Of a DNA stretch of 64,000 bases, positions 4,571 to 52,865 are shown in pieces; position 1 is the stretch's first letter, and every line of letters begins with the position of its first letter. Source of the stretch: Blautia coccoides (GTDB taxonomy: Bacteria > Bacillota > Clostridia > Lachnospirales > Lachnospiraceae); NCBI RefSeq assembly GCF_034355335.1, contig NZ_CP136422.1, positions 747,001 through 811,000 on the forward strand, given 5' to 3'. The notes under the pieces were generated by a model. It was not told where the DNA came from, ran no database searches, and was given only the letters and a program-made list of their open reading frames with translations. The position numbers and the translations under genes are program-made.

Positions 4571-4759
4571 AACATAGGTTTCTGGATTCATCCTTGCATA
4601 TGCTAAAAAATTCAAATACGAAAAAGAGGAGCTTCTTGTATAATTCAAATATAAGGAATTCCGAGAAAGAAGGTTGAGAAAAAAATACCTCAGAGTAAAA
4701 TAAGATTACTGACTTTGGACGGTTAGTAAAAAATCTTATTAAACAGTGAGGTACTTGAA

Positions 4760-6560: not shown

Positions 6561-6570
6561 GGTAGTACAT

Positions 6571-6672: not shown

Positions 6673-6685
6673 GTAAAAAGGGTGT

Positions 6686-6715
6686 GGGTGTCCATGGTTA
6701 ATGTCATGGGCACCC
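6686..6715 (+). terminator. Hairpin between precursor and exporter genes (partial terminator/attenuator)
   Basis: An 11-bp stem (GGGTGTCCATG with CATGGGCACCC, one G-U pair, 8-nt loop) followed by TGCTTTT. It sits 13 nt after the peptide stop and 21 nt before the exporter start. Bacteriocin operons commonly have such a leaky terminator so that the precursor mRNA exceeds the transporter mRNA. Confidence 0.55.
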
Positions 6716-6736
6716 TGCTTTTGGGAGAACCTTACG

Positions 6737-18395: not shown

Positions 18396-18920
18396 CGAAA
18401 CCAAACGATCCAAGTACTAAAAGCACTGCTCTGTCATGGTTGGATTGAACTTTCAAAGAGGATTGAAAGCTGAATCCAGCTATGACAGAAAAGCTGGAAA
18501 TATCAGGGATGGACCGGAAAAACGTCCACCGAAAGGTGCCGGTACAGGAAGGATATTAACAGGTCAGTAAGACTTAAAATAAAGAATGAGCCAGTAGTCG
18601 GCAGAAATAAATACCATAGGGCAAGACCCTGCAAAGGAGCTAAGCTGACACCCTGGATATGGGCAGGCAGAACGAAGGAAGTTAGGACTCACACCGACAG
18701 GTGGGATGATCCTGGTAGACACGGGAGGTAAGCTGCCATAGATGGAGGGGCATACACAAGGCCATATAAAGCGGAATAATGAGACGTTTTATTTTGTATG
18801 CCCAAAATCAGCTATTTTCGTACCAGATACACAGAAATACCCATCTTCACGGCTCATTCATCTGAGATATGTAACTAAAAATTCCTTGAAAAATAAGGAA
18901 AAAACACTTGACTATATAGG
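18396..18920 (+). ncRNA. Conserved non-coding right end of IS110 copy 2 (candidate bridge RNA)
   Basis: Aligns along its whole length with 6050-6560. GGGAGGT recurs inside at 18723-18729 and at the junction 18919-18925. Conserved outside coding frames, with several differences placed as if compensatory (for example CCACCGAGAGGTG versus CCACCGAAAGGTG). The bridge-RNA role is inferred from the IS110 family. Confidence 0.5.
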
Positions 18921-18933
18921 GAGGTGCATTATC

Positions 18934-20161
18934 ATGCCAAAAGAAACTAAGTTAGAAGAAGTTTTACGCAGCACATTAGAATCGTTAAAGGAAAAAGACT
19001 ATAGTATCGAAACACTTCTGCGATATCAGGGAAAATTCCACGTTCTTATTTCAATCGCACAAAAAAAGGGGATTACAGAACCAACAGAGGAATTATTTCA
19101 AGAATACCTCGGTAATAACAAAAACAAGTATACTGGAAAGTATTCGCTTCTTAAAGAGCGTGAACGAATTAGGGTAATAAATCTTATAAAATCCTATATC
19201 ACTAATGGCGAGGTAGATATCTCAAGGAAAAAGGGGGAGTCCGCCAGTGACAGGATACAAGCAGAATCCTTTAAGAATGAACTTAACTGCTTCATTATGC
19301 TCTTAAAAGAAGACCTGCTCCAGCCTAATACTATCTGTACCTATAAAAGGATCGTCTCTTATCTATTAATCTATTGTGAAGAAAAATCATACTGCTCCGT
19401 TAACAAGATGGTCTCTGGTGATATCAGGGGATTTATCTTATACCTATATGGACACGGCTATTTTAAACCGAATACTATTACAAGTGCCCTGTCAGGTCTC
19501 AAAAGATTTCTTTCCCTCTATCCAGATATAAAACACCTTATAATGGAGCTTCCGACCAGGCTTCCACGTGAACGCAGGATAATAGAAATATATAATAGTC
19601 TGGAAACAGATGCCATAAATGAAATACTATCGGATGGCAGCCTTACCAAACGTAATAAAGCCATTTGTTTATTGCTGCTGGAAACAGGGCTTAGGGCCGT
19701 AGATGTCTGTAATATCAAGCTTTCCGATATTGATTGGGACAAAGATATCATCTATATAAAACAGCAGAAGACGGGAATAGCATTAAATATCCCGCTCCGT
19801 AATTCTTATGGCAATACCATCGTTGACTATCTATTAAATGAGCGCCCTGGATGTAATTCCGAACATCTTTTTGTCAGGGAACTGGCACCATTCACACGCT
19901 TAAGCGGAGAAGGCTCCTCTATCAGGGAGATACTTATAAAAAGAGGCATTAGCCGGTATATCTAGGGACAACAGGGTTACTGGAAGCCGGACAACAAGGC
20001 ACAATGCAGCTTCCGTCATGCTAAGGTCCGGAGTCCCTATGCCAAATATCTCTGCTGTCCTTGGACATACCGACCCGAATACTGTGTCTGTTTATCTATC
20101 TACAGACGAGGCCGCAATGGCCGCTTGTACGTTACCGCTTCCTAGAGGAGGGCACAAATGA
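18934..20161 (+). pseudogene. First tyrosine recombinase of the RIT trio, frameshifted
   Basis: From ATG 18934 the frame encodes the SAM-like N-domain and the catalytic domain up to KRGISRYI and a stop at 19963-19965 (Arg in LLLETGLRAVDVCNI, Lys in IYIKQQKTGIALNI). The +1 frame then continues from 19967 with RTTRHNAASVMLRSG and VLGHTDPNTVSVYLSTDEA, which holds the remaining catalytic residues including Tyr. It ends in a TGA that overlaps the next ATG as ATGA. A one-base deletion or duplication near 19950-19966 therefore disrupted the gene, unless a programmed +1 shift occurs. Confidence 0.8.
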
Positions 20162-21114
20162 ATAAAACACTATCCGATTTATTAAACGAGTTTATAGAAT
20201 ATAAAATCCAGAATGGGTATGCCTATACCACTGCAAAATATCATCTGAATAAATACCTTGTTTTCTCAACCAGCCATGCCCCTGATGAAAGCATTCCCAG
20301 CAAAGATACTGTAAATACCTTTTTAAACAGATATGCGGATACGCCGGGGAACCTATATAATATAGCCGCTTCCCTCCGGGAATTCTCAAGGTATCTTATT
20401 GGTTTAGCATACACGTCTGCATATATCATTCCTCCGGGAAAAGTATCTTTGCCAATGCCTGTTCAACCATATTTATTTACAGAGGATGAGCTGGATGCTT
20501 TTTTCGATGTATGCGACAGTATAAAGTACGACTGTCATGTCCCTAAAAGACATATGGTGCTGCCAGCAATGTATCGGTTACTCTACTGCTGCGGCCTTAG
20601 ATGCAAAGAAGTGCGGGTTCTGCAAAGTGAAAATGTACACCTGGCAGAAAACTACATAGATATCCTCCAATCAAAAGGCCCAAAGAGCAGACGGATTTTT
20701 ATTTCACAGGAATTGTCTGAATATTTCGGGAGCTATGACAGGAGTATGAATGCTGCTTTTCCAGGCCGGCTGTTCTTCTTTCCTTCCCGGAAAGATAGCC
20801 CTTACAGTGCAGATGGATTTCAGAAAAATTTCCTAAAAATCTGGTATACAGCTTTTCCGGAAAAGAAATGCGATGGTGTGAGCATAAGGGCTTATGATGT
20901 CAGGCATCATTTTGCCTATGCAAACATGAACCGCTGGCTTCAGGAGGGCAAGGACATAAATGTAATGCTGCCATATTTAATGAAATACATGGGACATCAG
21001 GAAATAGAAAATACCCTTTATTATTTCCACCTTGTCCCTGATATTTATGATGCAATCGTAAAGAAATCATCCTTGTTTGAGGGGTTATTACCGGAGGTGA
21101 ATACGTGTGAGTAA
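20158..21114 (+). CDS. Second tyrosine recombinase of the RIT trio
   Basis: A 318-aa protein. Catalytic Arg in LLYCCGLRCKEVRVL, Lys near LQSKGPKSRRIFI, then AYDVRHHFAYANMNRW and YMGHQEIENTLYYFH with the Tyr nucleophile. Start overlaps the previous gene (ATGA), and the stop overlaps the next start by 8 nt. Intact. Confidence 0.9.
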   Translation: MNKTLSDLLNEFIEYKIQNGYAYTTAKYHLNKYLVFSTSHAPDESIPSKDTVNTFLNRYADTPGNLYNIAASLREFSRYLIGLAYTSAYIIPPGKVSLPMPVQPYLFTEDELDAFFDVCDSIKYDCHVPKRHMVLPAMYRLLYCCGLRCKEVRVLQSENVHLAENYIDILQSKGPKSRRIFISQELSEYFGSYDRSMNAAFPGRLFFFPSRKDSPYSADGFQKNFLKIWYTAFPEKKCDGVSIRAYDVRHHFAYANMNRWLQEGKDINVMLPYLMKYMGHQEIENTLYYFHLVPDIYDAIVKKSSLFEGLLPEVNTCE

Positions 21115-22138
21115 GAAAGTAACCGCAGATAAAGACAGTTCTTTCTTCTGGAATAGTGCGTCAGAATACCTGAACAATGAACTTCCAAATATCCGTAAAA
21201 AAAGTTTAAATACGGTAGAAGCTTACCGCCGGTCGCTAAATAGATATATTGATTTCCTGGAGGAAGGGAAACAGGTGAAAAGAGTGGATATATGCTATCA
21301 AGATTTTAACAAAAGCAACCTGAAAGATTATCTGTTATTTATGAAGGATTGCCAGCACCTGAGCGAAAAGACATGTAACCTACGGCTGACTGCAATCAGG
21401 TCATTGCTCGCTTATGCATCTGAAGAATCAACGGATATGACTGCCATCTATGTAAATGCAAAAATGGTAAAAGGGCTCACTGTTTCAGGAAAGGCAATCG
21501 AATACTTTGAGGATGGGCAGACCAAGGCACTTCTTAAAGCACCACCTGTTGAAACAAAGATTGGCCGGAGAAACCAGATGATCATGGTACTCGGTTATGA
21601 TGCGGGATTACGTGTCAGTGAACTTATAGGATTGACACTATCATCACTCCATCTTGATGCAGAAGTCCCATATGTAACGATACTGGGAAAAGGTGTAAAG
21701 TATAGGAATGTGCCACTGATGGGCAAGACCATAGAACATCTGACGGCATACCTAAAAGAATTCCATACCATACAAAAAATGGATATGCCTTTGTTTTATG
21801 CAACAACACATGGGGTGAGGCATCCGCTTTCAGATGATACGATGCAAAATTTATTGAAGAAATATGCGGATATAAGCAGGAATACGATTAAGATGCCTGA
21901 AGAAATTCATTTTCATATGCTAAGAAAAACAAGGGCAATGGACTTGTATCAGGCCGGATGTCCCTTATCATATATTCAGCAGCTACTGGGGCATGAAAAT
22001 ATCTCAACTACTAGCGGATTCTATGCGTTTGCAACCTTGAAAACATTAGCTGATGCTATTGAAAAGGCCAATCCCTCGGGAGCGGACGAAAAGAAATGGA
22101 AAGATGAGTCAGTACTAAAACAACTTTATAAGCTATAA
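21107..22138 (+). CDS. Third tyrosine recombinase of the RIT trio
   Basis: A 343-aa XerC/D-like protein. Catalytic Arg in LGYDAGLRVSELIGL, Lys in TILGKGVKYRNVPL, HMLRKTRAMDLYQAG, then LLGHENISTTSGFYA with the Tyr nucleophile. Starts at GTG 21107 within the end of the second recombinase. Ends 2 nt before the inner repeat of the right end. Intact. Confidence 0.9.
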   Translation: MSKKVTADKDSSFFWNSASEYLNNELPNIRKKSLNTVEAYRRSLNRYIDFLEEGKQVKRVDICYQDFNKSNLKDYLLFMKDCQHLSEKTCNLRLTAIRSLLAYASEESTDMTAIYVNAKMVKGLTVSGKAIEYFEDGQTKALLKAPPVETKIGRRNQMIMVLGYDAGLRVSELIGLTLSSLHLDAEVPYVTILGKGVKYRNVPLMGKTIEHLTAYLKEFHTIQKMDMPLFYATTHGVRHPLSDDTMQNLLKKYADISRNTIKMPEEIHFHMLRKTRAMDLYQAGCPLSYIQQLLGHENISTTSGFYAFATLKTLADAIEKANPSGADEKKWKDESVLKQLYKL

Positions 22139-26216: not shown

Positions 26217-28220
26217 TTACGCAATCATTTGAAGAAATTCATCTTCAGTAAGGATTTTTATTCCCAGATTCTGTGCTTTGGACAGCTTGCTTCCGGCTTT
26301 TTCACCAGCAATCAAATAGTCCGTTTTTTTAGAGACAGAATTGCTTGGTTTGGCTCCAAGCTCGAGGATTTTTGTGTTAATCTGGTCACGTGTAAAGTGT
26401 TCCAGTTTCCCTGTTGCAACGATGATTTTTCCTGTAAAGATAGTCTTTTCTTTCATAATATTTTGTTCCTTTCTTTCTTCAAATGTCATTTCAGTCTGTA
26501 ATTCTCGCCATAATTTCAGGTTTCGTTCATCTGCAAACCATATATGGAGGAAATTGTTAGATGCACAGCCGATTCCTTCAATCTGTGTGAAGTCATACCC
26601 ATGTAAAACTGCAGTTTCAAATGCGTTCAAGTCACTGTCGAAATGCGTATTCAGAATTTCACTTATGGTACGCCCGATAAGAGGAATATCCATTGCCACC
26701 AGATAGCGTGTAAATGTAGTATTTCGACTGTCATTAATAGATTTTTCCAGTTTTGTGTACGAAGCCTTCCTAAATCCATCCATCTGAATAATTTCATCTT
26801 TGTAGCGATCCAGATGATAAATATCCTGGAAGGATTTTATCCAGCCTTTTTCCAGAAATTTTTCCAATGTGGCAGAAGAGAGCCCCTGAATATTCATGGC
26901 TTTCTTTTCCACAAAATGTACCATGTTCCGCAGCTGTTGAGTTTCGCATGCTGGGTTATCACAGTGCAGTGTTTCAACCAGATGTCCATCTTGTGATTTA
27001 CGTGTATAAATCCGGGTCTTATGACCACAGCAGGAACAAAAGGCAGGAATAGATTCCTGATAATTGCCACGGTCCAGATTATCTTCTATGTGAGGGATAA
27101 TCATGTTGCGTTTTGACACTAAGATGCGACATCCCGGAACCAATTCTAAATTTTTTATAAAGGAAAGATTGTGCAGAGAAGCTCTTGACACTTCGCAGCC
27201 ATCAATATTGACTGTATCGAAAATTGCTACAGGAGATATGATACCGGACCGGGTTGGTGTCCATAAGATTTTACGCAGTACAGTTACATACGTTTCATCC
27301 TCAAACTTATATGCAATCCCATCTTTATAGAAGCGTCCGGTACGTCCACAGCTTTCTGAGTAGGAAATACTGTCATAACTTGCAACAATACCGTCTATTG
27401 GAAGGTGCTGCTGTTCAGAAAGTTCCTGGAGACTCTGGATATCATTTTTTAAATCCGATATTTGATAGTGCGGGTTTTCCACAAATATGTAAGGGCACAA
27501 ATCAAATCCTAACTGTTGAAGTTCCGATAATCGGAAGTGTTTAGAATCCTTACAATCAGAAGATTCATCCAGCCCTTCCAAGACTTTGAAAGCCAGAAAG
27601 TGTACATGGCGTTTAGCGCAGGTTTCCGGATTCAGACAGCGCACAGAGCCAGAGGCTAAATTTCTGGTATTACTATATTTCTTTCCGGTACTGTCAAGCA
27701 GAGTATCTTTGAGCAATTCAAAATCACTGTTTAGAATAAGCGCTTCACCACTGAGGCGGAGTTTTTTCTGGTACGGAATGGAGAGAGGGACGTTTTTAAA
27801 AGCAGGGATATTATGAGTGATGTCCTCACCTATCATCCCATCTCCTCTGGTACATGCTTGCACCAGTCGTCCATTCTCATAGTCAAGTTCCACAGTCAGT
27901 CCGTCCAACTTCAGCATAAGGAGTATCGCATGATTACCAATAAAATGATACAGCCTTTCTGTCTGTTTAGTCTTATCCAGTGACAGGAGAGGGGTCTTCA
28001 GTTTTACTTTCCCCAGTTCACTGACGGGCATATACCCGACACTTTGCGTGGGAGAATCGGATAATACAATTCCACTCTTCTTTTCAAGTTGTTCCAGCTC
28101 CTCAAATTTTTTGTCGTATTCATAATCCGATACGTTTGGGGAATCTGAGTTGTAATATGCATTTCTCTGGATGTTAAGCCAGGATACTAATTTTTTCATT
28201 GCTTTTATTTGTGATATCAA
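26217..28220 (-). CDS. ligA: NAD-dependent DNA ligase
   Basis: A 667-aa protein with the full LigA layout: Ia/NTase region (SDYEYDKKFEELEQLE), AMP-acceptor Lys104 in LMLKLDG, an OB fold, a Cys4 zinc finger (CSCCGHK ... CDNPAC), an HhH region (IQGLSSATLEKF and later GCASNN) and a C-terminal BRCT domain (GKIIVATGKLEHFTRDQIN to FLQMIA). It seals nicks using NAD. The first motifs are more divergent than in chromosomal LigA, so this is probably an ICE-borne extra copy used in replication or transfer repair. It follows the DUF5688 gene within 30 nt. Confidence 0.92.
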   Translation of the reverse strand: MISQIKAMKKLVSWLNIQRNAYYNSDSPNVSDYEYDKKFEELEQLEKKSGIVLSDSPTQSVGYMPVSELGKVKLKTPLLSLDKTKQTERLYHFIGNHAILLMLKLDGLTVELDYENGRLVQACTRGDGMIGEDITHNIPAFKNVPLSIPYQKKLRLSGEALILNSDFELLKDTLLDSTGKKYSNTRNLASGSVRCLNPETCAKRHVHFLAFKVLEGLDESSDCKDSKHFRLSELQQLGFDLCPYIFVENPHYQISDLKNDIQSLQELSEQQHLPIDGIVASYDSISYSESCGRTGRFYKDGIAYKFEDETYVTVLRKILWTPTRSGIISPVAIFDTVNIDGCEVSRASLHNLSFIKNLELVPGCRILVSKRNMIIPHIEDNLDRGNYQESIPAFCSCCGHKTRIYTRKSQDGHLVETLHCDNPACETQQLRNMVHFVEKKAMNIQGLSSATLEKFLEKGWIKSFQDIYHLDRYKDEIIQMDGFRKASYTKLEKSINDSRNTTFTRYLVAMDIPLIGRTISEILNTHFDSDLNAFETAVLHGYDFTQIEGIGCASNNFLHIWFADERNLKLWRELQTEMTFEERKEQNIMKEKTIFTGKIIVATGKLEHFTRDQINTKILELGAKPSNSVSKKTDYLIAGEKAGSKLSKAQNLGIKILTEDEFLQMIA

Positions 28221-28250: not shown

Positions 28251-28898
28251 TTACGGAATTAACAGCTTGCCAAGACTCCGATCGTAATAATATGGATGGT
28301 CAGACAGACGCTCATCGGGGGCAACCAACTTTTCATTTACAAAGCAAATCGTTTCACGAAAGTAATCTTTATCCTTAGTGCCGTCATCAGGAAGAATAAG
28401 TAATTCATGGATACTGCTGGGAATTATAAAATAATTCTTTTTCAGTAGACCCCTGATTAGATGTAGAACACCATCATAAAGTATGGACGTTGCACCAAAA
28501 CAACGTGTTTCATTAGAGAGAATAAAACAAGGTAGATAATTCTCATTATCCTGTAATGATATTTCATCAGAATGTTCCTCTATCATAGAGTCCATTGACT
28601 CAAATGAGAGTGGAAACAGATTTGGGGTGTTTTTCTGTGCACAAGCCATAAGAGCTTTGGTATCTACATCCCATACCCGAAGCAAATCATTATTAATGGG
28701 AATACTTAAAAGTCCATCGTCTGTTATATCTAATGCAATGAAAAAGATAATTGCCAGATCAAGGTAAGGCATGTAGGGACGACCCGAAAATTCAGTTGCA
28801 TTTTTAGACACTAACTTATACAGAATTTGGTCTTTTACATCATCAAAATCAGTAAAGTGTGTCAAAGGGTTCTTTAATTTAGTTGTTTCAAGATTCAT
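28251..28898 (-). CDS. DUF5688 family protein
   Basis: A 215-aa protein. Matches DUF5688 proteins of Clostridial mobile elements (DFDDVKDQILYKLVSKNAT near the N-terminus, then NETRCFGATSILYDGVL, SIHELLILPDD and LSDHPYYYDRSLGKL). Function unknown. It is the first gene after attenuator leader A, with AAGGAG before ATG, and precedes ligA. Confidence 0.8.
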   Translation of the reverse strand: MNLETTKLKNPLTHFTDFDDVKDQILYKLVSKNATEFSGRPYMPYLDLAIIFFIALDITDDGLLSIPINNDLLRVWDVDTKALMACAQKNTPNLFPLSFESMDSMIEEHSDEISLQDNENYLPCFILSNETRCFGATSILYDGVLHLIRGLLKKNYFIIPSSIHELLILPDDGTKDKDYFRETICFVNEKLVAPDERLSDHPYYYDRSLGKLLIP

Positions 28899-28965: not shown

Positions 28966-29076
28966 TTAGGCACAAAAAAAGAGAATGGACACAATAGCGT
29001 TCATTCTCTCATTGCTGCAATAAATGCAAAATAAAAATGCCAGAGGTTCTGCATGGGCAGAATTATCCTCTGACAT
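28966..29076 (-). CDS. Upstream ORF in leader A (36 codons), runs through the terminator
   Basis: Starts MSEDNSAH like the ORF of leader B, but after a one-base difference it shifts frame, passes through the whole terminator stem and U-tract and ends at TAA 28966. The start context (TTTAGGTTTGTATTT before ATG) is conserved in both leaders. Whether it is translated is inference. Confidence 0.45.
   Translation of the reverse strand: MSEDNSAHAEPLAFLFCIYCSNERMNAIVSILFFCA
28974..29009 (-). terminator. Intrinsic terminator inside leader A (attenuator)
   Basis: Minus-strand stem AGAGAATG / CATTCTCT followed by seven U, located between promoter A and the DUF5688 start. Full-length mRNA needs read-through. 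Confidence 0.85.
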
Positions 29077-29170
29077 AAATACAAACCTAAACTGCATGTG
29101 AAATATCCAATCCGGATTACACAAATAATAATTACATCTTCAGTATAACACTATATGTTGTGGTAGTCAA
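28974..29170 (-). promoter_or_regulatory. Attenuator leader A (promoter, hairpin, upstream ORF, terminator)
   Basis: Promoter: TTGACT (29165-29170), 17-bp spacer, TATACT (29142-29147). Leader hairpin 29041-29072: CAGAGG and TTCTGC pair with GCAGAA and CCTCTG. Then the upstream ORF and the terminator. About 85-90% identical to leader B over ~245 nt. The plan matches ribosome- or ligand-controlled attenuation; downstream genes are DUF5688, ligA and a 55-aa protein. Confidence 0.8.
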
Positions 29171-29308: not shown

Positions 29309-29794
29309 TTATCCCAGTTCTGTATTCAGCTTACTACGAATATCCATGAGGATGTTTCCTAAATGATTTTCACCGAAACCGTCAACACAACCCCAAAACC
29401 GGTCGCCCCATGTATTATCTTCAATCAATACTGAATCGCCCGTCGCAAGCAGTGCCTGCAACAGATTAGGATGCTGAAGGAATTTTGCAAAGCATATTTC
29501 GTACATATACCTTATTTTTACCTGATTCCAGTCTGGACGCAGTGTTAACTTACGTCCCAGTTGTTTTGCGACTGCAGGATTAGATAAGTGAGACATATAA
29601 AAATTTTGCTGTTCTTTTGTGTATATGGTTTTCTGTGCCTGAAAGGCAGCTTCATTGTTCGCATATCTGTGTCCCCGATAGGTTATTGGGGCATGATAAA
29701 AGTTACTGAGAAAAGCATATTTTCCTCGAAACTCAGTAATTGCTGGTATTCGTCTTAAATCAATGCATTGTATAGTTGTTTTACATTTTATCAT
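29309..29794 (-). CDS. NADAR (YbiA-like) family protein
   Basis: A 161-aa protein. ATG at 29794 is chosen because GGAGG lies 10 nt upstream; the open frame to 29938 adds 48 residues without homology. Core motifs FRGKYAFLSNFYHAPI, YANNEAAFQAQK, TLRPDWNQVKIRYM and EDNTWGDRFWGC are typical of NADAR. The family acts on N-glycosidic bonds of riboflavin intermediates or removes ADP-ribose from guanine in nucleic acids. Here, near a DUF3990 protein, a role in ADP-ribose reversal is possible but unproven. Confidence 0.85.
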   Translation of the reverse strand: MIKCKTTIQCIDLRRIPAITEFRGKYAFLSNFYHAPITYRGHRYANNEAAFQAQKTIYTKEQQNFYMSHLSNPAVAKQLGRKLTLRPDWNQVKIRYMYEICFAKFLQHPNLLQALLATGDSVLIEDNTWGDRFWGCVDGFGENHLGNILMDIRSKLNTELG

Positions 29795-29969
29795 TGTCAG
29801 TATACCTCCATAAAATATTGATTTTTGTGCCCCTTCCAATTTGTCGCAGTCACTTTTGTAAATAGGTGAAAGATAATTTCTCACATTAGGGCCTGGAAGG
29901 AGACCGCCGGCTTTATTTGTAAGAAAAAGCACCTCCATGCCATCCCAACCGTCAATTTAATACGTGCAT

Positions 29970-30221: not shown

Positions 30222-30800
30222 TTAGATTCCATAAGGATTTTCAAAGGAATGAATATAAATATCCTGTTCTTCTAAGAGCATTTTCAGTTCATCAAAGGAG
30301 CTGGCATCATATCCTAGTCTCCCAAAGGTATCCAATATTTCTTGGCTTGAGCTGAAGAGAGACCAGTCTTCTAATACTTCACACACTTTGTTCCCTAAAG
30401 GAGTTAATTCGTTTTCATCGTTAATGCTGAGCATATATTCTTCAGGAAAAAAGCGCCCCTCTGTATCTGTATTAAAGTAGATACCTACTCCGGGCTCAAT
30501 ACTCCTACATACGAATGAGACCTTATAATGGCTTGCAATCGTTCGATACGCATCATAGAGAGGAGACCATGCGGTGCTTAATTCCAAAAGTATTCCGTCT
30601 ATATTGCGTTCTTTGTAAGTCACCGTTCCATAAAGGCAGATACCGGTAGTTGGAATCCCTTTACATTGAAATAAACGGCCTATCCAAGCATCAGTAGGAG
30701 AAGTATTAATTGAGGCTTCAATATCTTCCCAAAGGTTTTGCAATCCTTCGGGATTGCTGTCTGAATAAAAATAAAGATCATCGCTACATATATTTGCCAT
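30222..30800 (-). CDS. Api92/DUF1281-like protein (ferredoxin-like fold), leader B operon
   Basis: A 192-aa protein. The N-terminus MANICSDDLYFYSDSNPEG and the Trp/Tyr pattern (STAWSPLYDAYRTIASHYKV) resemble plasmid and ICE proteins of the YubB/Api92 type. Function unknown. GGAGG-like site before ATG. First gene after leader B. Confidence 0.6.
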   Translation of the reverse strand: MANICSDDLYFYSDSNPEGLQNLWEDIEASINTSPTDAWIGRLFQCKGIPTTGICLYGTVTYKERNIDGILLELSTAWSPLYDAYRTIASHYKVSFVCRSIEPGVGIYFNTDTEGRFFPEEYMLSINDENELTPLGNKVCEVLEDWSLFSSSQEILDTFGRLGYDASSFDELKMLLEEQDIYIHSFENPYGI

Positions 30801-30956
30801 TATTCACCTCCCCCCAATCCCATAATCTCATATGTGTAATTATGTTGATTGAGAATACTTTTAATTTTAAAATTTCCAATAATATTTATCTCCTTTCTTT
30901 AAATTCATGTGTGCATCCGTTGGATTTTCCCGTTTCCCTCCTTTCGTGTTTCGGCA

Positions 30957-30993
30957 CAAAAAAAGAGAATGGACACAATAGCGTTCATTCTCT
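30957..30993 (-). terminator. Intrinsic terminator inside leader B (attenuator)
   Basis: Same stem AGAGAATG / CATTCTCT followed by seven U as in leader A. Confidence 0.85.
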
Positions 30994-31062
30994 CATTGCT
31001 GCAATAAATGCAAAATATAAAATGCCAGAGATTCTGTCATGGGCAGAATTATCCTCTGACAT
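30985..31062 (-). CDS. Upstream ORF in leader B (25 codons)
   Basis: Starts MSEDNSAHDRISG and ends FIAAMRE, with its TGA in the terminator stem. The same peptide tail FIAAMRE exists in leader A in another frame, so leader B probably keeps the ancestral form. Start region TTTAGGTTTGTAATT is conserved but only weakly Shine-Dalgarno-like. Confidence 0.5.
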   Translation of the reverse strand: MSEDNSAHDRISGILYFAFIAAMRE

Positions 31063-31214
31063 AATTACAAACCTAAACTGCATGTGAAATATCCGATTCG
31101 GATTACACAAATAATGATTACATTTTTAGTATACCACCATATGTTGTGTTGGTCAAACGGAAAATGCCATATATAGCACATGCGGGGATGCAGAAAATCT
31201 GTTCCATAAGGGAA

Positions 31215-31642: not shown

Positions 31643-32818
31643 ATGATTTACGTAGGAATTGATGTCGCAAAAGATAAGCATGATTGCTTTATCACAAACT
31701 CTGATGGCGAAGTCCTTTTCAAGGCTTTTACCATCAAAAACAATCTCGATGGGTTCGACGAGCTTTATCAGAAAATAGAATCCGTTATGGAAGATGCTTC
31801 TAAAGTAAAAGTAGGCCTAGAAGCCACTGGACACTATAGTTACAATCTTCTCGGATATCTGCTTGATAAAGGTCTGGCCACCTTTGTTATCAACCCGTTA
31901 CATACTAATCTGTACAGAAAAAGTCTAAGCCTTAGACAGACGAAAACGGATAAAGTTGATGCCCATACAATTGCTTCTATGCTAATGTCTGACGTGAACT
32001 TAAAGTCCTACTCAGACACATCGTATCACAACGAAGAGCTTAAGTCACTTACTCGCTATCGTTTTGATAAAGTTAAAGAACGCGCGAAGCTTAAAACATC
32101 TATATCCCGTCTTGTATGTATCCTTTTCCCTGAGTTAGAAAAGCTTGTTCCAACACTTCATCAGAATTCTGTTTATGAGTTACTCTACGAATTTCCTGGT
32201 GCAAAACAGGTAGCTAATGCACATCTCACAAGACTTTCAAATCTTCTTGAAACCGCATCTAAAGGCCACTACACAAAAGAAACCTCTATCGCTTTTAGAG
32301 AGGCTGCAAGAACCTCTATCGGTTCAAATATGCCAGCTAAATCGCTTGAATTAAAGCACACCATTAAGCTCATTAGAGAGCTAGATTCTGAAATCGAAGA
32401 GATTGAAAACGAGATTAAAGTCATCATGGATGAAATCAATTCTCCAATCCTTAGCATTCCTGGAATCAGCTATCGAATGGGTGCCATGATTATTGCTGAA
32501 ATAGGTGACTTTAGCCAATTCGACTCTCCAGATAAGATCCTTGCTTATGCAGGAATGTCGCCTTCTACCTATCAATCCGGCCAGTTAGATAACTGTTATG
32601 CCAGAATGGAAAAACGTGGTTCTAGATACCTTAGATATGCTCTGTTTAATGCAACCGCATATGTTTGTCTATGGGATCCAACCTACAAGGCTTATCTTGC
32701 CAAGAAACGAGCTGAAGGCAAGCATTACTATGTTGCAATGTCTCACGCGACCAAGAAACTAGTTCGGCTAATTTATCATCTCGAACGCACTGGACAGCAA
32801 TACCAAAAAGCAATCTAA
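31643..32818 (+). CDS. IS110-family transposase (distinct from the two other copies)
   Basis: A 391-aa protein. ATG 31643 is preceded by AGGAGG (31631-31636). DEDD motifs: YVGIDVAKDKHD, LEATGHYSYN and KTDKVDAHTIA. C-terminal part: ILSIPGISYRMGAMIIAEIGD and KRGSRYLRYALFNATAY. Intact. It is only distantly related to the copies at 4760 and 17109. It is the only plus-strand gene in the long minus-strand ICE region, a recent insertion between two ICE operons. Confidence 0.93.
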   Translation: MIYVGIDVAKDKHDCFITNSDGEVLFKAFTIKNNLDGFDELYQKIESVMEDASKVKVGLEATGHYSYNLLGYLLDKGLATFVINPLHTNLYRKSLSLRQTKTDKVDAHTIASMLMSDVNLKSYSDTSYHNEELKSLTRYRFDKVKERAKLKTSISRLVCILFPELEKLVPTLHQNSVYELLYEFPGAKQVANAHLTRLSNLLETASKGHYTKETSIAFREAARTSIGSNMPAKSLELKHTIKLIRELDSEIEEIENEIKVIMDEINSPILSIPGISYRMGAMIIAEIGDFSQFDSPDKILAYAGMSPSTYQSGQLDNCYARMEKRGSRYLRYALFNATAYVCLWDPTYKAYLAKKRAEGKHYYVAMSHATKKLVRLIYHLERTGQQYQKAI

Positions 32819-37189: not shown

Positions 37190-39268
37190 TCAAATAAGAT
37201 ATTGTTTTACAAGTTGTACCATGTTCTTTGGAAGGTCTTCTAAATTTGTAATATCCAAAAAATGATCACCATAAATCCGTTTGATATTATCTTTGTCATT
37301 ACCTATAGCTGCAGCAAAAATAGTGATCCTCTTCCTGGCGTATTCCTGCTTGATGGCTCTAAGGTCTGCTTCAGCTTCCGTTCCGCTGTAGCCTGCATCA
37401 GCAGGCTGACCGTCAGAGGAGATAATAAGCAGTTTTTGCTCTGCAGGCTGTGTCAGTAACCGTTCTGCCACAAATCTAAGAGCAGCTCCATCTCGGTTGC
37501 CATTTCTTGCGCTCATGTCCATGATGCGGAAGCAATCCTGATTATCTAAGGAATCAAATTCAGCATAGGAATAGAGTGCGACACCACGCTCATTTGTGCT
37601 GTGCCCATAAATTGTAATGGGAACACCGAGGTTTTTACAGAAATCCTCAAGAACGATAGCGGTTTTACAGGTATGGGTAATTCGGTTGTATCCTGCCATG
37701 GAACCACTTTCGTCAGCCAGAAAGGCGACTGCCAGTTTCATCCGGTCAGTGGGCAGATGGGTTCTGCTGAACAGAGCGCCGTCGATTCGGTGATAAGCCC
37801 TCATATCCAACCGTTTTCCCATAAGCAGGTATTTTTGCTTGCCGCCTTCAGCTTCAGAACGCAGGATAGGTGCCACCGTTTTTTGGAGACGTTTAGATAT
37901 CCGCAGAAGCTCTGGTGCTATGTGCTGGTAACCAGTTATCATATAGTCTGGTACATCAGTGATTCTGTTTATAGTCAGATGGATACCCTTATGGGCATTT
38001 CCATAGTGCAGCTTATCAGCTTCAGCCTGTAATTCGTCGGAGAGTTTTTGTTCGCTTTGTACGATGGCTTTTTTTTCAGCAACTTTATGCAGAATGGAAA
38101 AAAGGTCATCTGCAGCCTTTTTATATCCACTGCCGGCGTACTGTTGGTTATAGGTAATGCCAGGGTTTTTGCCATCTACAATAGAAGTAGTCTTGGCAAG
38201 CTGGATTCTTTCAGTTTCTTCTTGTAGCACTTCCTTGATTTCTTCTTTATCCTGTCGTATTTTTACTGGAGACAGAGCTTTGCCACCGGTGTTTTCATGA
38301 GCATTATTGCAGCATGTCTCAGGCAGCGGCAGACCATTTTGTATCTGGCTTTCAAGCGTATTCGCCAGACTACCGCTGGCAGAATTTTCGTCCTGATGCT
38401 TTAGAGCGTCTTCCATTTCCTCAACAAGAGGTTCGATATACTTCCACAAAATGACCAGGATATGATTGGTTGCCCTTAATCGCTCTTTTATGTCATCTTC
38501 ATAAACAGAGAAGTCAACGTGAGTCGTACAGGCTTCCAAATCCTCCAGGTAAGGTCCGGTGTAATCCGTTATGTTGTTGACCGTACCGGCCCTGCAGTAT
38601 TGAAGCAACAGATTACAAAGGACAGAAAAATCCTTGTATCCATCGTCCTGTTGCTTTTCAATAGGCGGCACCTGCTCACACATCCTTAAATTGTTTAGCT
38701 GGATTCCCCGTTTAAAGCTGCCGGGGAAGTCTGTGCACATCCGGTTCTCCACATATATATCTTCTAATATATTGTGGATGTACGCTGCGCATTGCGTGAG
38801 TGTTAAACAAACGGCCTTTTGCTTTTCTTCCATTGCCTCTGTGATTGCTGCCAGGTTTTTCTGATACTGCAGCTCGGTTATGGTGGGGGCATCTGGATAA
38901 AAAGTTCCATTTTGCAAAGAATTCAAATACATGTTTCTGGATACAAAATCAGTGTATAGAAGATGTCCAATTTCATGCCCATTAAGCCCTGTTAGGCTTT
39001 GGTCACGCAGAAACCGTGATGGAAAGCTTTGGGTAATCATGTTTGCAGCATTGATAAAAATTGAATTGTTGTCCGTATGCCCAATGTCTGCACTTTTTTC
39101 ATCCCAGGCAATTAAGACAGACAATCCCCACTTATAACGTTTGGTAGCTGCTTCCGCAAGTGATGTTTGATGTGACTGATAGAGGGAGGACGTAAATAAG
39201 TCCTCATCTGATATACTGTCCTCAAGTTCACGTATTTGCTTTTGGAGCAGTCGGTAATTACTTCTCAA
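37190..39268 (-). CDS. VWA-domain protein, partner of the MoxR-type ATPase
   Basis: A 692-aa protein. The first ~130 residues contain GHEIGHLLYTDF, a HExxH zinc-peptidase-like motif. The middle is helical and acidic. The C-terminal VWA domain has an intact MIDAS, DESGSM (Asp519) and later SSDGQP. The pattern resembles CobT/BatA-like VWA partners of AAA ATPases. It overlaps the XRE gene by 4 nt and follows the ATPase gene in one operon. MoxR-VWA pairs remodel or load metal into target complexes; the target here is unknown. Confidence 0.85.
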   Translation of the reverse strand: MRSNYRLLQKQIRELEDSISDEDLFTSSLYQSHQTSLAEAATKRYKWGLSVLIAWDEKSADIGHTDNNSIFINAANMITQSFPSRFLRDQSLTGLNGHEIGHLLYTDFVSRNMYLNSLQNGTFYPDAPTITELQYQKNLAAITEAMEEKQKAVCLTLTQCAAYIHNILEDIYVENRMCTDFPGSFKRGIQLNNLRMCEQVPPIEKQQDDGYKDFSVLCNLLLQYCRAGTVNNITDYTGPYLEDLEACTTHVDFSVYEDDIKERLRATNHILVILWKYIEPLVEEMEDALKHQDENSASGSLANTLESQIQNGLPLPETCCNNAHENTGGKALSPVKIRQDKEEIKEVLQEETERIQLAKTTSIVDGKNPGITYNQQYAGSGYKKAADDLFSILHKVAEKKAIVQSEQKLSDELQAEADKLHYGNAHKGIHLTINRITDVPDYMITGYQHIAPELLRISKRLQKTVAPILRSEAEGGKQKYLLMGKRLDMRAYHRIDGALFSRTHLPTDRMKLAVAFLADESGSMAGYNRITHTCKTAIVLEDFCKNLGVPITIYGHSTNERGVALYSYAEFDSLDNQDCFRIMDMSARNGNRDGAALRFVAERLLTQPAEQKLLIISSDGQPADAGYSGTEAEADLRAIKQEYARKRITIFAAAIGNDKDNIKRIYGDHFLDITNLEDLPKNMVQLVKQYLI

Positions 39269-39525
39269 AAATTATCCCTCCTTTTTCTTTCTAAATCTTT
39301 TGTTAACAGGTCTTCGACTGTGCAATGGAAGTACGCTGCAATGACATAAGCAGCATGAGCATTGGGGAATGTCCGCCCAAGCTCATAGTTTCTAATACTG
39401 TACGGTGGAAGATTCAAAATTCTTGCTAAAGATTTTTGGGACATTCGGTTTGACATGGATTTTCGGAGATATCGGAGATTTCTCATGAAAAAATCCTGAG
39501 TGGTTATTTCTGTGATTTTTTGCAT
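39265..39525 (-). CDS. XRE-family HTH protein between ATPase and VWA genes
   Basis: An 86-aa protein with a Cro/C1 HTH (NRMSQKSLARILNLPPYSIRNYELG) and a short C-terminal helix. Twelve nt after the ATPase gene, 4-nt overlap with the VWA gene. Its presence inside the operon suggests autoregulation or a DNA-targeted role for the pair. Confidence 0.8.
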   Translation of the reverse strand: MQKITEITTQDFFMRNLRYLRKSMSNRMSQKSLARILNLPPYSIRNYELGRTFPNAHAAYVIAAYFHCTVEDLLTKDLERKRRDNF

Positions 39526-39537
39526 CGTATGCCTCCT

Positions 39538-41355
39538 TTAAGCCGCTAGAAAGGTATCTATACAATTCTGACGAATCTCTTCTCGGCTGTCTACATCAGC
39601 AGAAACAGAGGAGAGAACAGTAATATTTGCCGCTGCCTCAATGTCCTTGCATATCATATAAGACTGTACCCATGAGATTAATTCCCGTACTCCGCAGCAG
39701 CCGTCTGTAATCAGGTTCTGTCTGCAGTATTCCGATATGGATTTTACAATCCTGGCCATCGTCACAACAGCTGATTTGTCAGTACAACCGGTGATTCCCA
39801 GAACCCTGGCTACCAACGTATCCTCATCTGGCTCATCTATATCCATAATCAGGTTCATTCTTGAAATCACAGATTGGTTTATTCCTTTACATCCGGCATA
39901 TTCAATATTTGTGGTAACAACAATAATTGTGTCCGGATGCCTTGTGATGATTTCACCGTTTGGCAGTGTCACACAGTTACAACGATCCAGAAGCGAGTTG
40001 AGTCCAACCAATACTCCGGGATTTGCAATAACTGTCGGTTCCTGGACCTCAACTACCCAGCCATTACGTATTGCTTCTACAAGAGGTGTATCAACATAAC
40101 GGAAACTGGGCGAGTAGGAGAGTGCTGCTACAGGATCGCCTATATGATTCATATAGATTTCCCAGAGCATCTGTAGGATTTTATCCTCTGTCGCTGTTTC
40201 ATCGTAGACACCGGTTAATCTCTCATAAACGGTGACCGGATCCAGTAAGAGTTCCTGGACGGTTGGATGGTATCTGAAATCCACCTTTGAACAATTTTCA
40301 TCCCCCAAGTCCGGAAGAATCTGTCCAAGCAGATCCAATATCTCCGTGTTTGCTGAACAGGTAAAGCAGCAATAGGGCAGGTGAAGTCCTGCAGCTATTG
40401 CTTTGGCACCTTCTGTCTTTCCAGTACCGGAAGGACCACGTAATAAAAAATTACGCATGGGCTGTTGGCTCAATGTTGTTGCTTTAGCGTGTTCGCAAAT
40501 TAATTTTATTTCTTCTGGGATGATGTACCAGTCTGCAATAGACGGCACCATTGACTCTTCAGAGGGGCTAAGAATCCGTGTTTCGGTAAGCGGATATTTG
40601 GCAATAAAATCTTCAGGCTTGATAATATATTGAGGTTTTATATGAGTTTTCGGAGTGAAAACCTGAAACCGCCCTGAGATAACATTGGTTGGGGCATAAG
40701 TTCCATTTTCCACATTCATTGTTTTCAAAGGGGATATGGCACCAGAGCCGCTAATTTCAGCCCGCAAAGCAATGCCGCTTGTCAGAGAATCTCCGTATCG
40801 GAGCCTGCGGTAAAGGTTATCACAAAATATAGCAGCGACTTCAGCAGCAGCACGCAGGTCTACGTACCCATTGAGACGGTGCACCTTTAGTTTCTGGTAA
40901 TACTCATTACACTCTTCATCCTCTAAAGCAGTGGGGAGTAGCGCAAAGAATAAAGCAGCACCACTGTTTCCATCCTCCTTCAAAATATATTTATTTGGGG
41001 AGTTACTTTGATCTACAGGCTTATCATATCTTCCGGCAATAAACTTCCCGGTGAGACGGTTATAAACAACTGCGTGCAGTTCGCCCATACGGCTTGGATA
41101 CTCTGCGACTGTATAATTGTTACTTTGGCTTCCGATAGCGCCTTCAGGTTCTGTACCGTTCAGCGGAGCCTCAATATCCATAAAAGCCAGGACAGCCCGC
41201 AGCATGGAAGCGTGCAGAGTGCATTGCTTTTTAAGTTGCGAACAATATTTTGAGGCAAGATTCGTGAATCTTGGTGAATCAGAATAATCCTGGAAGGGTT
41301 CCGGAAGTTTTCTTTTATTGAAAGTCCAATTGGAAATTAATTTAGATGCAGACAT
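39538..41355 (-). CDS. MoxR-type AAA ATPase
   Basis: A 605-aa protein. Walker A GPSGTGKTEGAKAIA (about residue 307), Walker B-like TIIVVTTNIEYAG region and sensor segment INQSVISRMNLIMDI, as in MoxR/dynein-like AAA modules (PTVIANPGVLVGLNSLLDRC is the insert that precedes Walker B). The N-terminal 270 residues are a poorly conserved extension. It probably drives conformational change of a target together with the VWA protein. Confidence 0.85.
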   Translation of the reverse strand: MSASKLISNWTFNKRKLPEPFQDYSDSPRFTNLASKYCSQLKKQCTLHASMLRAVLAFMDIEAPLNGTEPEGAIGSQSNNYTVAEYPSRMGELHAVVYNRLTGKFIAGRYDKPVDQSNSPNKYILKEDGNSGAALFFALLPTALEDEECNEYYQKLKVHRLNGYVDLRAAAEVAAIFCDNLYRRLRYGDSLTSGIALRAEISGSGAISPLKTMNVENGTYAPTNVISGRFQVFTPKTHIKPQYIIKPEDFIAKYPLTETRILSPSEESMVPSIADWYIIPEEIKLICEHAKATTLSQQPMRNFLLRGPSGTGKTEGAKAIAAGLHLPYCCFTCSANTEILDLLGQILPDLGDENCSKVDFRYHPTVQELLLDPVTVYERLTGVYDETATEDKILQMLWEIYMNHIGDPVAALSYSPSFRYVDTPLVEAIRNGWVVEVQEPTVIANPGVLVGLNSLLDRCNCVTLPNGEIITRHPDTIIVVTTNIEYAGCKGINQSVISRMNLIMDIDEPDEDTLVARVLGITGCTDKSAVVTMARIVKSISEYCRQNLITDGCCGVRELISWVQSYMICKDIEAAANITVLSSVSADVDSREEIRQNCIDTFLAA

Positions 41356-42219: not shown

Positions 42220-42876
42220 TTATTTGAATGGAAGCTGTTGCGCTCCAGTGGGGTAATTTTCTGATACATTATTAAAATTACCTTGAGCCGGGGCAACAGG
42301 AGGCTGGGGTGGTTCCCCGTTATAATAACCTGTGTACCCAGGATTTGCCGGTGCCGCCTGTGTCTGATAATTCTGATAGGCGGAGTTTTGCTGTGGAGGA
42401 GCGCTGTAATTAGGTGCGGTGCCTTGCTGAGGAGTAGAACCGTTGTTAGGCGGAGCCATCCCTGGATTTGATGCGGGCATACCACCTGCATTATAATTGC
42501 CAGCAGGGGGATTGGCATTGGGTGCTGCCGGATTATTTTCTGTACGATTTGCAATTACAAACTGCCAGTCAGATACAGAAATTTTGGCATTTATGCCTGC
42601 CTGACCTTGTTTTTGACCTTTTTGGTAGATAAAAGACTGTAATTCCAGTGGGCCATAAATCCATAAGCAGGTTCCGCTTTTGACCTTTGCATTCAGAAGA
42701 CGCTGTCCCTGAAACTTGTTGAAATAACAATTGTAAAAAATGGTTTCATTCTCTCCCTTTTGGTTCCTCTGGGTAACAGCAACATCTAACAAAACATATT
42801 CACTTCCTCCGTTTTGAGCTTGCTGCATGACGGGGTCCTTTGTTGGTCTCCCCATGATGTGAATGATTGATGACAT
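42220..42876 (-). CDS. ssb: Single-stranded DNA-binding protein
   Basis: A 218-aa protein starting MSSIIHIMGRPTKDPVM, where AAGGAG is 7 nt upstream; the longer frame to 42948 is not needed. The OB fold (residues 1-110: IFYNCYFNKFQGQRLLNAKV, LWIYGPLELQSFIYQKG) is followed by a Pro/Gly/Asn/Gln-rich tail. The end PTGAQQLPFK resembles the protein-interaction tip. It protects ssDNA during conjugative transfer and replication. Confidence 0.88.
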   Translation of the reverse strand: MSSIIHIMGRPTKDPVMQQAQNGGSEYVLLDVAVTQRNQKGENETIFYNCYFNKFQGQRLLNAKVKSGTCLWIYGPLELQSFIYQKGQKQGQAGINAKISVSDWQFVIANRTENNPAAPNANPPAGNYNAGGMPASNPGMAPPNNGSTPQQGTAPNYSAPPQQNSAYQNYQTQAAPANPGYTGYYNGEPPQPPVAPAQGNFNNVSENYPTGAQQLPFK

Positions 42877-42902
42877 ACATTTCTCCTTTCTGCCGCTTTG
42901 GG

Positions 42903-43058
42903 CTATAAAAAATTGTGAAATAAAAAAAGTGCCATTATGAAACCGCATAATACGGCTAACATAATGACACTAATTTCCAAACTTAAACTTCGTGTGTCCC
43001 GGATGAATGGTCCGGACTCCCGCATTGGGGATAACACAAATCTTATATACAGGTACAT
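42903..43058 (-). CDS. Possible small membrane protein (51 aa)
   Basis: Begins MYLYIRFVLSPMRESGPF; a single strong TM helix (ISVIMLAVLCGFIMALFLF) at the C-terminus. No ribosome site, so support is weak. Confidence 0.3.
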   Translation of the reverse strand: MYLYIRFVLSPMRESGPFIRDTRSLSLEISVIMLAVLCGFIMALFLFHNFL

Positions 43059-43105
43059 AATAACACAAGATATTGATATAGTCAAATAAAAAACACAATA
43101 TATAG

Positions 43106-44017
43106 TTAAAAGTATGATTTGTTGATAAAATCTTTCAGGCTGGTGCATACCTCATCATAAGAGACAGGTTGAAACAAAAGTCCTTTTGTAATGGTTTCAT
43201 AATCCTCTTTATAAATTTCTCTTTCCAATATTTCAGTTAATAACTTCAGGATTTCTATCCCTTCTTTGGCAGAGGGGCAGTTTGGAAGAGGTTCCCGCAG
43301 CTGCCGTACCTCCTTTACCAACGCTGGAAAAGAATCTGCTAGAGAAACGGTCTGTAAAATCTTGTGTATATCATATAAATGCCGGGAATGTCTTGAAATT
43401 TGACCATCCAAATAGTAATCACAAATAGCAAATATTTTATCGATCAGTGTGCGTTCAATTTCTTGGGTGATAATGGGAAAGGGTAACAGCTGGTATTCTT
43501 CAGCTACGTTATGAAGACCTTCATTATCAAGAAATTTATGTAAATAGCTGTCAACTGGGCGCTGACAGGTGGGAAAGGGGAGCAGGGCAACATAGGTTTC
43601 GATTACCAGCTCCGGTTTTAAAACTGTCTGGATACCGAACTGGCTGGAATAGGCTGCTTTGTAGCAATTATAATTACGCCGGCTTCGTGTCTCCTCAAGA
43701 TTGGATATACAAAAGCCAAGAGCCTCTATGGATTCTATAACCCCCTTCTTTAAACGGCGTTTCCTGCTCTCACCAGGGACACCGGATGAAGCAGTATAGG
43801 AAAGATCGATGTCTTCAGAAAATCGGTCGATTAGTTGATAACACTTGGAAAGTGAGGTGCCTCCTTTGAATACCATATCAGGAATACGGTTGGAGAGTTC
43901 ACGCAAGACCAGCGTAACATAATAATCTTTTTCTATGATATAAGCTGGTATGTGAAAAACATCTGAAGCTCCGCCGATTAGTTCTTCAAAAGTTTCTTTA
44001 TCCTCATGTAAAAGCAT
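43106..44017 (-). CDS. abiEii: AbiEii/AbiGii nucleotidyltransferase toxin
   Basis: A 303-aa protein. KGGTSLSKCY followed by FSEDIDLSY is the nucleotidyltransferase motif of type IV toxin AbiEii (GSx10DxD-like). Overlaps the antitoxin gene by 14 nt. The AbiE system gives phage defence by abortive infection and stabilises mobile elements. Confidence 0.88.
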   Translation of the reverse strand: MLLHEDKETFEELIGGASDVFHIPAYIIEKDYYVTLVLRELSNRIPDMVFKGGTSLSKCYQLIDRFSEDIDLSYTASSGVPGESRKRRLKKGVIESIEALGFCISNLEETRSRRNYNCYKAAYSSQFGIQTVLKPELVIETYVALLPFPTCQRPVDSYLHKFLDNEGLHNVAEEYQLLPFPIITQEIERTLIDKIFAICDYYLDGQISRHSRHLYDIHKILQTVSLADSFPALVKEVRQLREPLPNCPSAKEGIEILKLLTEILEREIYKEDYETITKGLLFQPVSYDEVCTSLKDFINKSYF

Positions 44018-44627
44018 AGATAATCCTCCATTCTATAAGTTTTTTGGCAGTATAGCCAGTCATCGCTGGTACAACAGAGGATAAATCCTCTTGTGTAAAG
44101 CCGCTTCCACGGACATAATTTATCAAAATCTGGATGGTTTCTTTCTGAGACAACTCGGAATATTTTTCCGCTTGGTTCACAGCATCCAAAAATTGTAATA
44201 CTGCAGCATTTTGCGGAGTTACAGTTATTGCTGGACGTTTGATCCGAACGGTCAGATTACCAATGGTGACTGTGCGGCCATTTGTAGATTCCTTATTGGT
44301 AACAATCTCAATAGTGGCAGGCATCTGCGTTGTAAGACCAAGCTGATTCGCAAAAATTGCCCCAGTAAAATAACCAAAGGTGTCTAAACTGTTTTGGATG
44401 TATTTTCGGGAAATTACTTTCTGGGGGTCCAAATAACTTTTTTTCAGTATTCTGGATTTTTTCGGAAAATAGTAGATACCTGTATCGTAGCGTACAAGCT
44501 GTCCATTCTTTACTAGACGAGTAATATATTGGCGCAGGGCATTGTCTGTCATTTTATCGAATTTCAATTCATTAACAAAAATAGGTTCATTGTAGCCATA
44601 GGTTTCCTTCAAATAATTTTCCAACAT
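44004..44627 (-). CDS. abiEi: AbiEi-type antitoxin (winged helix, DUF6088-like)
   Basis: A 207-aa protein starting MLENYLKETYGYNEPIF at 44627, the start with an AGGAG site 11 nt upstream; an upstream in-frame ATG at 44654 is possible. N-terminal winged helix (LRQYITRLVKNGQLVRYDTGIYY), then a C-terminal domain. It represses its own operon and neutralises AbiEii. Confidence 0.82.
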   Translation of the reverse strand: MLENYLKETYGYNEPIFVNELKFDKMTDNALRQYITRLVKNGQLVRYDTGIYYFPKKSRILKKSYLDPQKVISRKYIQNSLDTFGYFTGAIFANQLGLTTQMPATIEIVTNKESTNGRTVTIGNLTVRIKRPAITVTPQNAAVLQFLDAVNQAEKYSELSQKETIQILINYVRGSGFTQEDLSSVVPAMTGYTAKKLIEWRIIYAFT

Positions 44628-44726
44628 GATAGCATCCACTCCTTTCACCTCCATAATACAATATTTATATAAAGAATGTCAAATAATATTACATATTATG
44701 GACGGAAAAATTAGGATCTATACTAT

Positions 44727-52847: not shown

Positions 52848-52865
52848 AAACATCCTCCTAAAGTT

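Follow-up and report, generated by a model that had tools for sequence, protein, structure and literature searches.

A conserved leader RNA shared by several operons of a conjugative element in Blautia coccoides: a tentative case for antitermination

The nut sites of phage lambda, with boxA, boxB and the N protein, join a small hairpin to a nearby linear conserved motif and are reused in several operons. Phage HK022 carries two put RNAs, each of them downstream of an early promoter, and in phages of this kind most early genes are preceded by terminators (available text of PMC9378689). Antitermination mechanisms of Gram-positive bacteria are few, and the available text of PMC12691694 names three; LoaP, which in Bacillota acts where a hairpin in the leader precedes an intrinsic terminator, depends on a NusG paralogue and on a UNCG hairpin (PMC12691694, same text). 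Two further systems belong to Gram-positive conjugative elements: canT of Tn916, a cis-acting RNA antitermination element that is active as a fragment of 341 nt and inactive as one of 291 nt (available text of PMC11658703), and conAn of pLS20, in which a protein and an RNA act together where a single operon of more than 30 kb begins (available text of PMC8955417).

Here we describe a leader RNA in Blautia coccoides which in its logic comes closest to HK022 put, as a short cis RNA that follows promoters and has terminators ahead of the genes. It differs from put, which is about 70 nt long with two stem-loops and a triplex (available text of PMC9378689), in consisting of one hairpin and a linear motif, with adjoining terminators and later segments complementary to both. 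With canT and conAn it would share antitermination in a Gram-positive conjugative element; canT, however, is much longer, and conAn pairs a protein with its RNA at a single operon. Leader hairpin and intrinsic terminator recall LoaP. A LoaP regulon is without support: a search for NusG paralogues gave one PF02357 match in the genome, between genes that by eye read as secE and rplK, and no UNCG loop occurs among the P1 loops of 34 copies (see below).

The window, i.e., the whole 64,000-nt stretch of DNA analysed, holds two close copies of the leader, A and B, both on the minus strand and identical at 235 of 255 positions (92%, E 6e-103). An earlier reading of the same DNA, made from the letters alone (hereafter the sequence-only reading), had seen this similarity and put it slightly too low, at 85–90% over 250 nt. 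It had also counted two leaders in the element; that a conserved leader is common to several operons stands, and a third, diverged copy, leader C, was missed. It came to light with R1, a covariance model, at 42.8 bits and E 1.4e-5 in the window; beyond leaders A, B and C, matches of the model in the window reach at most 18.5 bits, which is chance level. The predicted fold of leader B lies 4.2 SD below those of dinucleotide shuffles (0 of 200 as good), and that of another copy, L008, 3.2 SD below its shuffles. The observation of a conserved RNA leader common to several operons of one element is thereby confirmed, and its anatomy of promoter, P1, motif and terminators is well supported. The three leaders, and the parts of leader B in the order in which they would be transcribed, are:

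28969..29170, minus strand: leader A including its promoter (-35 from 29170, -10 to 29142; RNA model match 29126..28969, 146.7 bits).
42901..43085, minus strand: leader C, diverged, including its promoter (-35 from 43085, -10 to 43057; RNA model match 43041..42901).
31177..31166, minus strand: second palindrome-like element of leader B, GCTATATATGGC, seen by eye.
31128..31156, minus strand: promoter of leader B (-35 TTGACC at 31156..31151, 17-bp spacer, -10 TATACT at 31133..31128).
31134..31148, minus strand: spacer palindrome, a putative protein operator, from the spacer consensus across copies.
31083..31109, minus strand: P1, the 5′ hairpin (UGUG/CACA outer, AUCCG/CGGAU inner helix), from folding.
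31068..31078, minus strand: conserved motif GUUUAGGUUUG, RNA GUUUARGUUUG.
31022..31062, minus strand: T1, the first intrinsic terminator, then a T-rich tract, from folding and alignment.
30958..30993, minus strand: T2, the second intrinsic terminator (GAGAATGA ... CATTCTC, then T7; stem 30993..30965), from folding.
30985..31062, minus strand: 25-codon ORF, MSEDNSAHDRISGILYFAFIAAMRE (ATG at 31062, stop TGA at 30987..30985), judged not functional.
30948..30955, minus strand: P2′, complementary to the motif (GCCGAAAC against GUUUAGGU, 7 of 8 pairs).
30909..30925, minus strand: P0′, complementary to the 5′ arm of P1 (AUCCAACGGAUGCACAC; 4 of 200 shuffles as good).

Relatives were sought at several depths. 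By BLAST, the leader matches 8 of 299 family genomes, its own included, with two matches in four of the eight; the distance between the paired matches is about 10 kb in G035, about 13.5 kb in G028 and about 26 kb in G104. With a DNA pattern built around the motif, 115 stretches were found in genome contigs. The covariance model, built from 16 sequences and run on 78 of these 115 loci and the window (record titles were the main ground for setting aside the other 37; one of these, L034, had passed the feature test and failed alignment), gave 41 matches at E<=0.5. Three belong to the window and 38 lie elsewhere, some of them at places that BLAST had also found; the search for further copies that had been proposed as a check thus yielded leader C and these 38. 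Those with a title (L093–L127 aside) come from Lachnospiraceae or similar gut bacteria, one being an untyped MAG (L036). The leader was found in 6 of 195 relatives and in 2 of 391 class genomes, its own and one in another family (L273). A shorter pattern matched 21 of 397 family genomes, of which 10 by inspection hold true leaders and 11 chance matches; a reversed control pattern matched nine genomes. Given these low tallies in family, relatives and class, the leader is sparse, in about 2–3% of family genomes. The comparisons below use a set of 34 copies, made up of the three window copies, 28 of the other 38 model matches, and L147, L151 and L273; the other 10 matches and L144, L145 and L152, which were left out by choice, are mostly near-duplicates or lie close to a locus end.

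None of the 72,556 records of a plasmid collection, which may or may not include pLS20, matched by blastn at E 1e-5; a relation to conAn or another plasmid antiterminator could lie beyond the reach of blastn, since RNA elements may diverge that far. The pattern GAATGAACGCNATNGTGTCCATTC had no match in genome contigs. Two pattern searches of viral contigs gave 13 and at least 120 matches, and none of these 133 loci fits the RNA model. A phage collection gave one match (68.8%), on the unannotated fecal record MT835792; this copy (L275, 15002..15232) lies on an unverified record labelled Bacteriophage, which may be a fragment of a conjugative element. Rfam 15 has no match in the window at gathering score, the only Rfam search to cover leader C; at E<=5 over 28880–31250 it gives two weak matches outside the leaders, both far short of the gathering scores, in agreement with the earlier remark that no named family fits. 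A literature search found no paper on this leader, most subscription papers being outside its reach. As far as Rfam and the literature search go, this is a real and conserved leader RNA of mobile elements that is apparently undescribed.

Leaders A and B each start behind a TTGAC-17-TATACT promoter, the 17-bp spacing being as the sequence-only reading had it. A promoter weight matrix scores 37.0, 34.4 (leader B) and 28.4 at the three leaders and 4.0 at the next site in the window, the matrix having been built from leader copies that include these three. A free promoter scan picked the 17-bp spacer in 29 of the 34 copies and another register in L040, L048, L065, L076 and L106; with a pattern that fixes the spacer at 17 bp, the leader-proximal site is present in all 34 copies (32 distinct), always upstream of the leader and in the same orientation. 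The spacers hold an imperfect palindrome (consensus TACTATATATAGTGT) which resembles a protein operator and may be one, to judge from its sequence. The earlier view that the leaders are controlled by RNA and not by protein is at odds with this operator-like palindrome. By eye, a palindrome-like element recurs about 33 bp further upstream in many copies, not all. Elsewhere in the window the best candidate operator scores 14.8, against 14.4 for the best site in one shuffled window.

After the transcription start come P1, GUUUAGGUUUG, T1, a small hairpin P3, and T2. Only one terminator had been described before; T2 is indeed present, and T1 (31062..31022), which lies ahead of it, had been overlooked. 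In alignment A1 (16 sequences, from which L065 and L124, with a long insert, are left out and to which the near-duplicates L002 and L120 are added), 96.0% of the 397 cells of T1, P3, T2 and P1 combined are paired, 45 of the 397 are G-U, and in slid controls pairing drops to 33–59%. Changes on both sides occur in 14 cells, all of them in T1 and P3; shuffles give 3.0, and none of 500 gets to 14. Counted by pair, four change on both sides, two in T1 (out of eight) and two in P3 (1.9 in shuffles, 5 of 500 as many), the shuffles ignoring the relatedness of the copies. The number of further pair types, 17, is at chance level (16.4 in shuffles; 242 of 500 reach 17). In T2, 94.6% of A1 cells are paired, and neither in T2 nor in P1 does any pair change on both sides; in the outer helix of P1, where 96.9% of cells pair, all changes are one-sided. 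By a script run with no shuffle control, T1 scored in 32 and T2 in 29 of the 34 copies; L103 and L120 fail the T-run rule of the script for T1, yet a T1 stem is visible in both. A simple scan for terminators picks up T1 or T2 in none of the leaders, as neither has the kind of stem and loop that it requires.

The loop of P1 is variable. It starts as a GNRA loop in 13 of 23 non-redundant copies by script and in 15 of 23 after two rows were corrected by eye, five rows having been misread by the script (these loops read GGAAA or GGGAU by eye); the loops of leaders A and B do not begin GNRA. A hairpin with a linear motif, use in several operons and some GNRA-like loops recall the lambda nut sites; the leader differs in its order, hairpin then linear motif, and in its varying loops, and no N-like protein was identified. 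The motif is invariant in alignments A1 and A2, where its string was fixed by the DNA pattern search; the copies found by BLAST keep it too.

Among the diverged copies, leader C and L151 have a T1 stem whose sequence has largely changed (GTGTCATTATG/CATAATGGCAC in leader C, against T1 of A and B), and in L147 and L273 it is the T2 stem that largely differs. P1-like pairing persists in all four, together with GUUUAAGUUUG (leader C, L147 and L273) or GUUUAUGAUUG; in leader C P1 is enlarged, and T2, P0 and P2 were looked for and none found. Since the motif is kept while T1 stems differ, it is unlikely to act by pairing with T1, and antitermination therefore fits better than classical attenuation; for a classical attenuator or riboswitch, in which an upstream element pairs with a terminator arm, this comparison covers pairing of the motif with T1.

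Attenuation by a leader peptide was the mechanism proposed by the sequence-only reading, in which a ribosome stalled on SEDNSAH...FIAAMRE would block the terminator. Leader B does carry an intact 25-codon ORF, and its stop, as claimed, lies inside the 5′ arm of a terminator, namely T2. Read upstream from the T2 stop, this ORF exists in one of the 34 copies, leader B itself. Leader A shares only its last residues, indels shifting the frame there and elsewhere, and in other copies the start is absent, a stop comes early or the residues are unrelated, so that the start codon is not conserved; the T2 stop is replaced by TGG in 8 of the 34, and 4 have no stem match by script. No strong ribosome-binding site is seen by eye ahead of the ATG in leader B. 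Further copies thus keep the terminators with unrelated or absent ORFs, and because a conserved short ORF ending at the terminator is absent from 33 of 34 copies we reject the stalling peptide, a reading that is now extremely improbable.

The leaders precede different operons, as had been stated: A serves DUF5688 and ligA, and B a 192-aa ORF, a 73-aa ORF and a NADAR gene, in this order. The genes concerned in the window are:

28251..28898, minus strand: DUF5688, first gene of leader A.
26217..28220, minus strand: NAD-dependent DNA ligase LigA, behind leader A.
30222..30800, minus strand: 192-aa ORF, first after leader B (weak DUF1281_C match below cut-off).
29309..29938, minus strand: NADAR gene behind leader B (anti-phage NADAR model score below cut-off).
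42220..42876, minus strand: single-strand binding protein (ssb, PF00436), first gene after leader C.

NADAR-like genes also follow the ligase behind leaders L048, L056 and L120. Across 46 leader places a downstream ORF is present in 44. The first recognisable gene is LigA-like in 15, DUF5688-like in 14 and a member of a ~280-aa family without Pfam match in 8, i.e., one of these three in 37 of 44 places; the remainder are a 404-aa family (2; followed by a YqaJ-domain ORF, tested in L151), SSB (1), the 192-aa ORF (1) and unclassified (3). The classes rest on blastp at 1e-5, with Pfam on window genes and a few others, and near-identical loci are in the list. A gap of 64–80 nt separates the leader from the start of the first ORF in 24 of 44 places, which would leave little room for a separate promoter.

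The element in the window is called conjugative because it holds a TraG/VirB4-type ATPase, with a VirD4-type coupling protein 0.8 kb and tyrosine integrases about 11 and 14 kb beyond the window. Other features of the region are noted in passing. An IS110 transposase (31646..32818) lies just upstream of leader B, and three IS110-family transposases have near-identical Pfam scores (4760..6049, 17109..18395 and, in L300, 3263..4549). Three tandem tyrosine recombinase genes on the plus strand (18742..22138; 407, 318 and 343 aa) form what we take to be a Tn554-like arrangement. The stretch 482..8419 (plus strand), with a GHKL-domain protein, a radical SAM/SPASM protein, an IS110 transposase and an ABC transporter, is possibly a peptide natural-product locus. 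Downstream of leader C (37190..41355, minus strand) an AAA ATPase, with a weak NCBIfam match to anti-phage IteA below cut-off, adjoins a CobT/VWA-type protein. Directly upstream of leader C (43106..44654, minus strand) an AbiEii-type nucleotidyltransferase and a DUF6088 gene are a possible type IV toxin–antitoxin pair, and inside the conjugation region (49194..52853, minus strand) there is a large surface protein with thioester, SpaA and T-Q ester domains.

These leaders may be read more simply, as a repressed promoter followed by two plain terminators that damp leaky transcription, with a fixed fraction of read-through and with P1 and the motif serving RNA stability or function, or as the source of a short RNA that is itself the product, a small trans-acting RNA. 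An operator-like palindrome and terminators could alone explain silence, and there is no known antitermination factor. On the other hand, P1 and the motif outlast large changes in T1 and T2, and the near-constant distance of the genes in 24 of 44 places suggests regulated read-through; we consider these plain readings rather unlikely.

Behind T2 many copies have two segments that are complementary to the start of the leader. P2′ adjoins T2 downstream, mostly reads GCCURAAC and is complementary to the motif at a single register in 28 of the 34 copies, with 8 of 8 pairs in 20 and 7 of 8 in 8; the fit fails in leader C, L147, L151 and L273, where the motif is diverged, and in L076 and L065. Because the motif was fixed by the search pattern, P2 has no support from covariation, and its fit is conserved complementarity rather than covariation. 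P0′ lies just ahead of the ribosome-binding site. Against 200 shuffles, which preserve base composition only, its complementarity to the 5′ arm of P1 is matched by at most 10 in 24 of 34 copies, by 13 and 14 in L095 and L151, and by at least 57 in leader C, L030, L036, L065, L088, L089, L147 and L273, where it fails.

Alignment A2 consists of 24 copies chosen for having P0′ and is, by eye, off by one in P0′ for some clades, for which reason P0 was judged by duplex energies and not by pair counting. In 16 non-redundant copies judged to bear P0 (L030 included) the energies of the own duplexes sum to -268.3, against -241.4 (SD 7.6) for permuted partners, and 32 of 100,000 permutations are as good; with all 23 non-redundant copies, a set that mixes copies with and without the segment, none of 20,000 is. 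Both tests ignore phylogeny, i.e., common descent. When the 5′ arms of the 23 copies are ranked for the P0′ of leader B, its own comes only 18th. The base after GUGU, which is unpaired in P1, pairs in P0 as C-G in L040, L090 and L066, as U-A in L074, L035 and L048 and as G-C in L120 and L103, and is unpaired in A, B and L030. As judged by predicted duplexes, P0 complementarity thus covaries across lineages. Ensemble prediction for 13 leaders that bear P0 favours pairing of the 5′ arm with the post-leader region over local pairing in 11 (at 0.66 or above in nine of the 13); L056 and L040 prefer P1.

That P0 and P1 use the same 5′ arm, with P0 covarying and the post-leader region preferred in those 11 ensembles, and that P2′ fits the motif so regularly, would suit a fold switch, in which the 5′ arm has the choice between P1 and P0′, the motif pairs with P2′, and a ligand, a protein or the terminated RNA acting in trans sets stability or translation of the read-through transcript. 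Such a switch could not decide termination in cis, however, since P0′ and P2′ are transcribed after both terminators; neither segment is seen in diverged copies, and the ensemble measure is not specific, reaching 0.60 for L147, which lacks a convincing P0. We hold this switch to be unlikely. The same inverted repeats, which in P0-bearing copies flank roughly 170 bp between promoter and gene, might instead act in DNA, as the ends of an invertible segment or in the fold-back of transferred single-stranded DNA; the promoter, however, lies upstream in the same orientation in every copy of the set, the repeats are imperfect, with bulges, and the G-U cells of A1 fit an RNA of this strand, all of which makes a role in DNA very improbable.

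Our preferred reading, held at a little under even confidence, is that these are put- or nut-like antitermination leaders that combine repression at the DNA level with a gate made of T1 and T2. It is favoured because P1 and the motif persist where terminator stems have changed, and because the spacing between terminators and genes is nearly constant. The parts shown here are the promoter with its palindrome, P1, the motif, the terminators, the covariation of P0 and the use of the leader ahead of several operons; from these we infer the antitermination step and any protein partner. During dormancy of the element a DNA-binding protein at the spacer palindrome of each near-consensus promoter would probably block initiation. 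Once transcription starts, the nascent RNA would fold P1 and expose GUUUARGUUUG, and RNA polymerase would meet one, in most copies two, intrinsic terminators in tandem. P1 and the motif, alone or with a factor, might modify the polymerase, which could then pass T1 and T2 into ligase, ssb and similar operons; the simple terminator scan, to which T1 and T2 are likewise invisible, showed none inside the operons. In the main lineage P2′ and P0′ in the read-through RNA could dismantle P1 and the motif after T2, and their pairing could confine antitermination to T1 and T2. The full form of this last idea, a self-limiting RNA antiterminator in which P1 and GUUUAGGUUUG convert the polymerase and P2′ and P0′ pull the element apart and reset it, strikes us as quite improbable; if true, a mobile element would give several operons a local pass each by means of a single RNA cassette.

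For antitermination, a short cassette that recurs in several operons of gut mobile elements would be a compact and testable example, and it would bear on how conjugative elements silence their DNA-handling genes in the host and then switch them on together. The apparently covarying P0 helix raises the further question of whether a transcript can disarm its own antiterminator.
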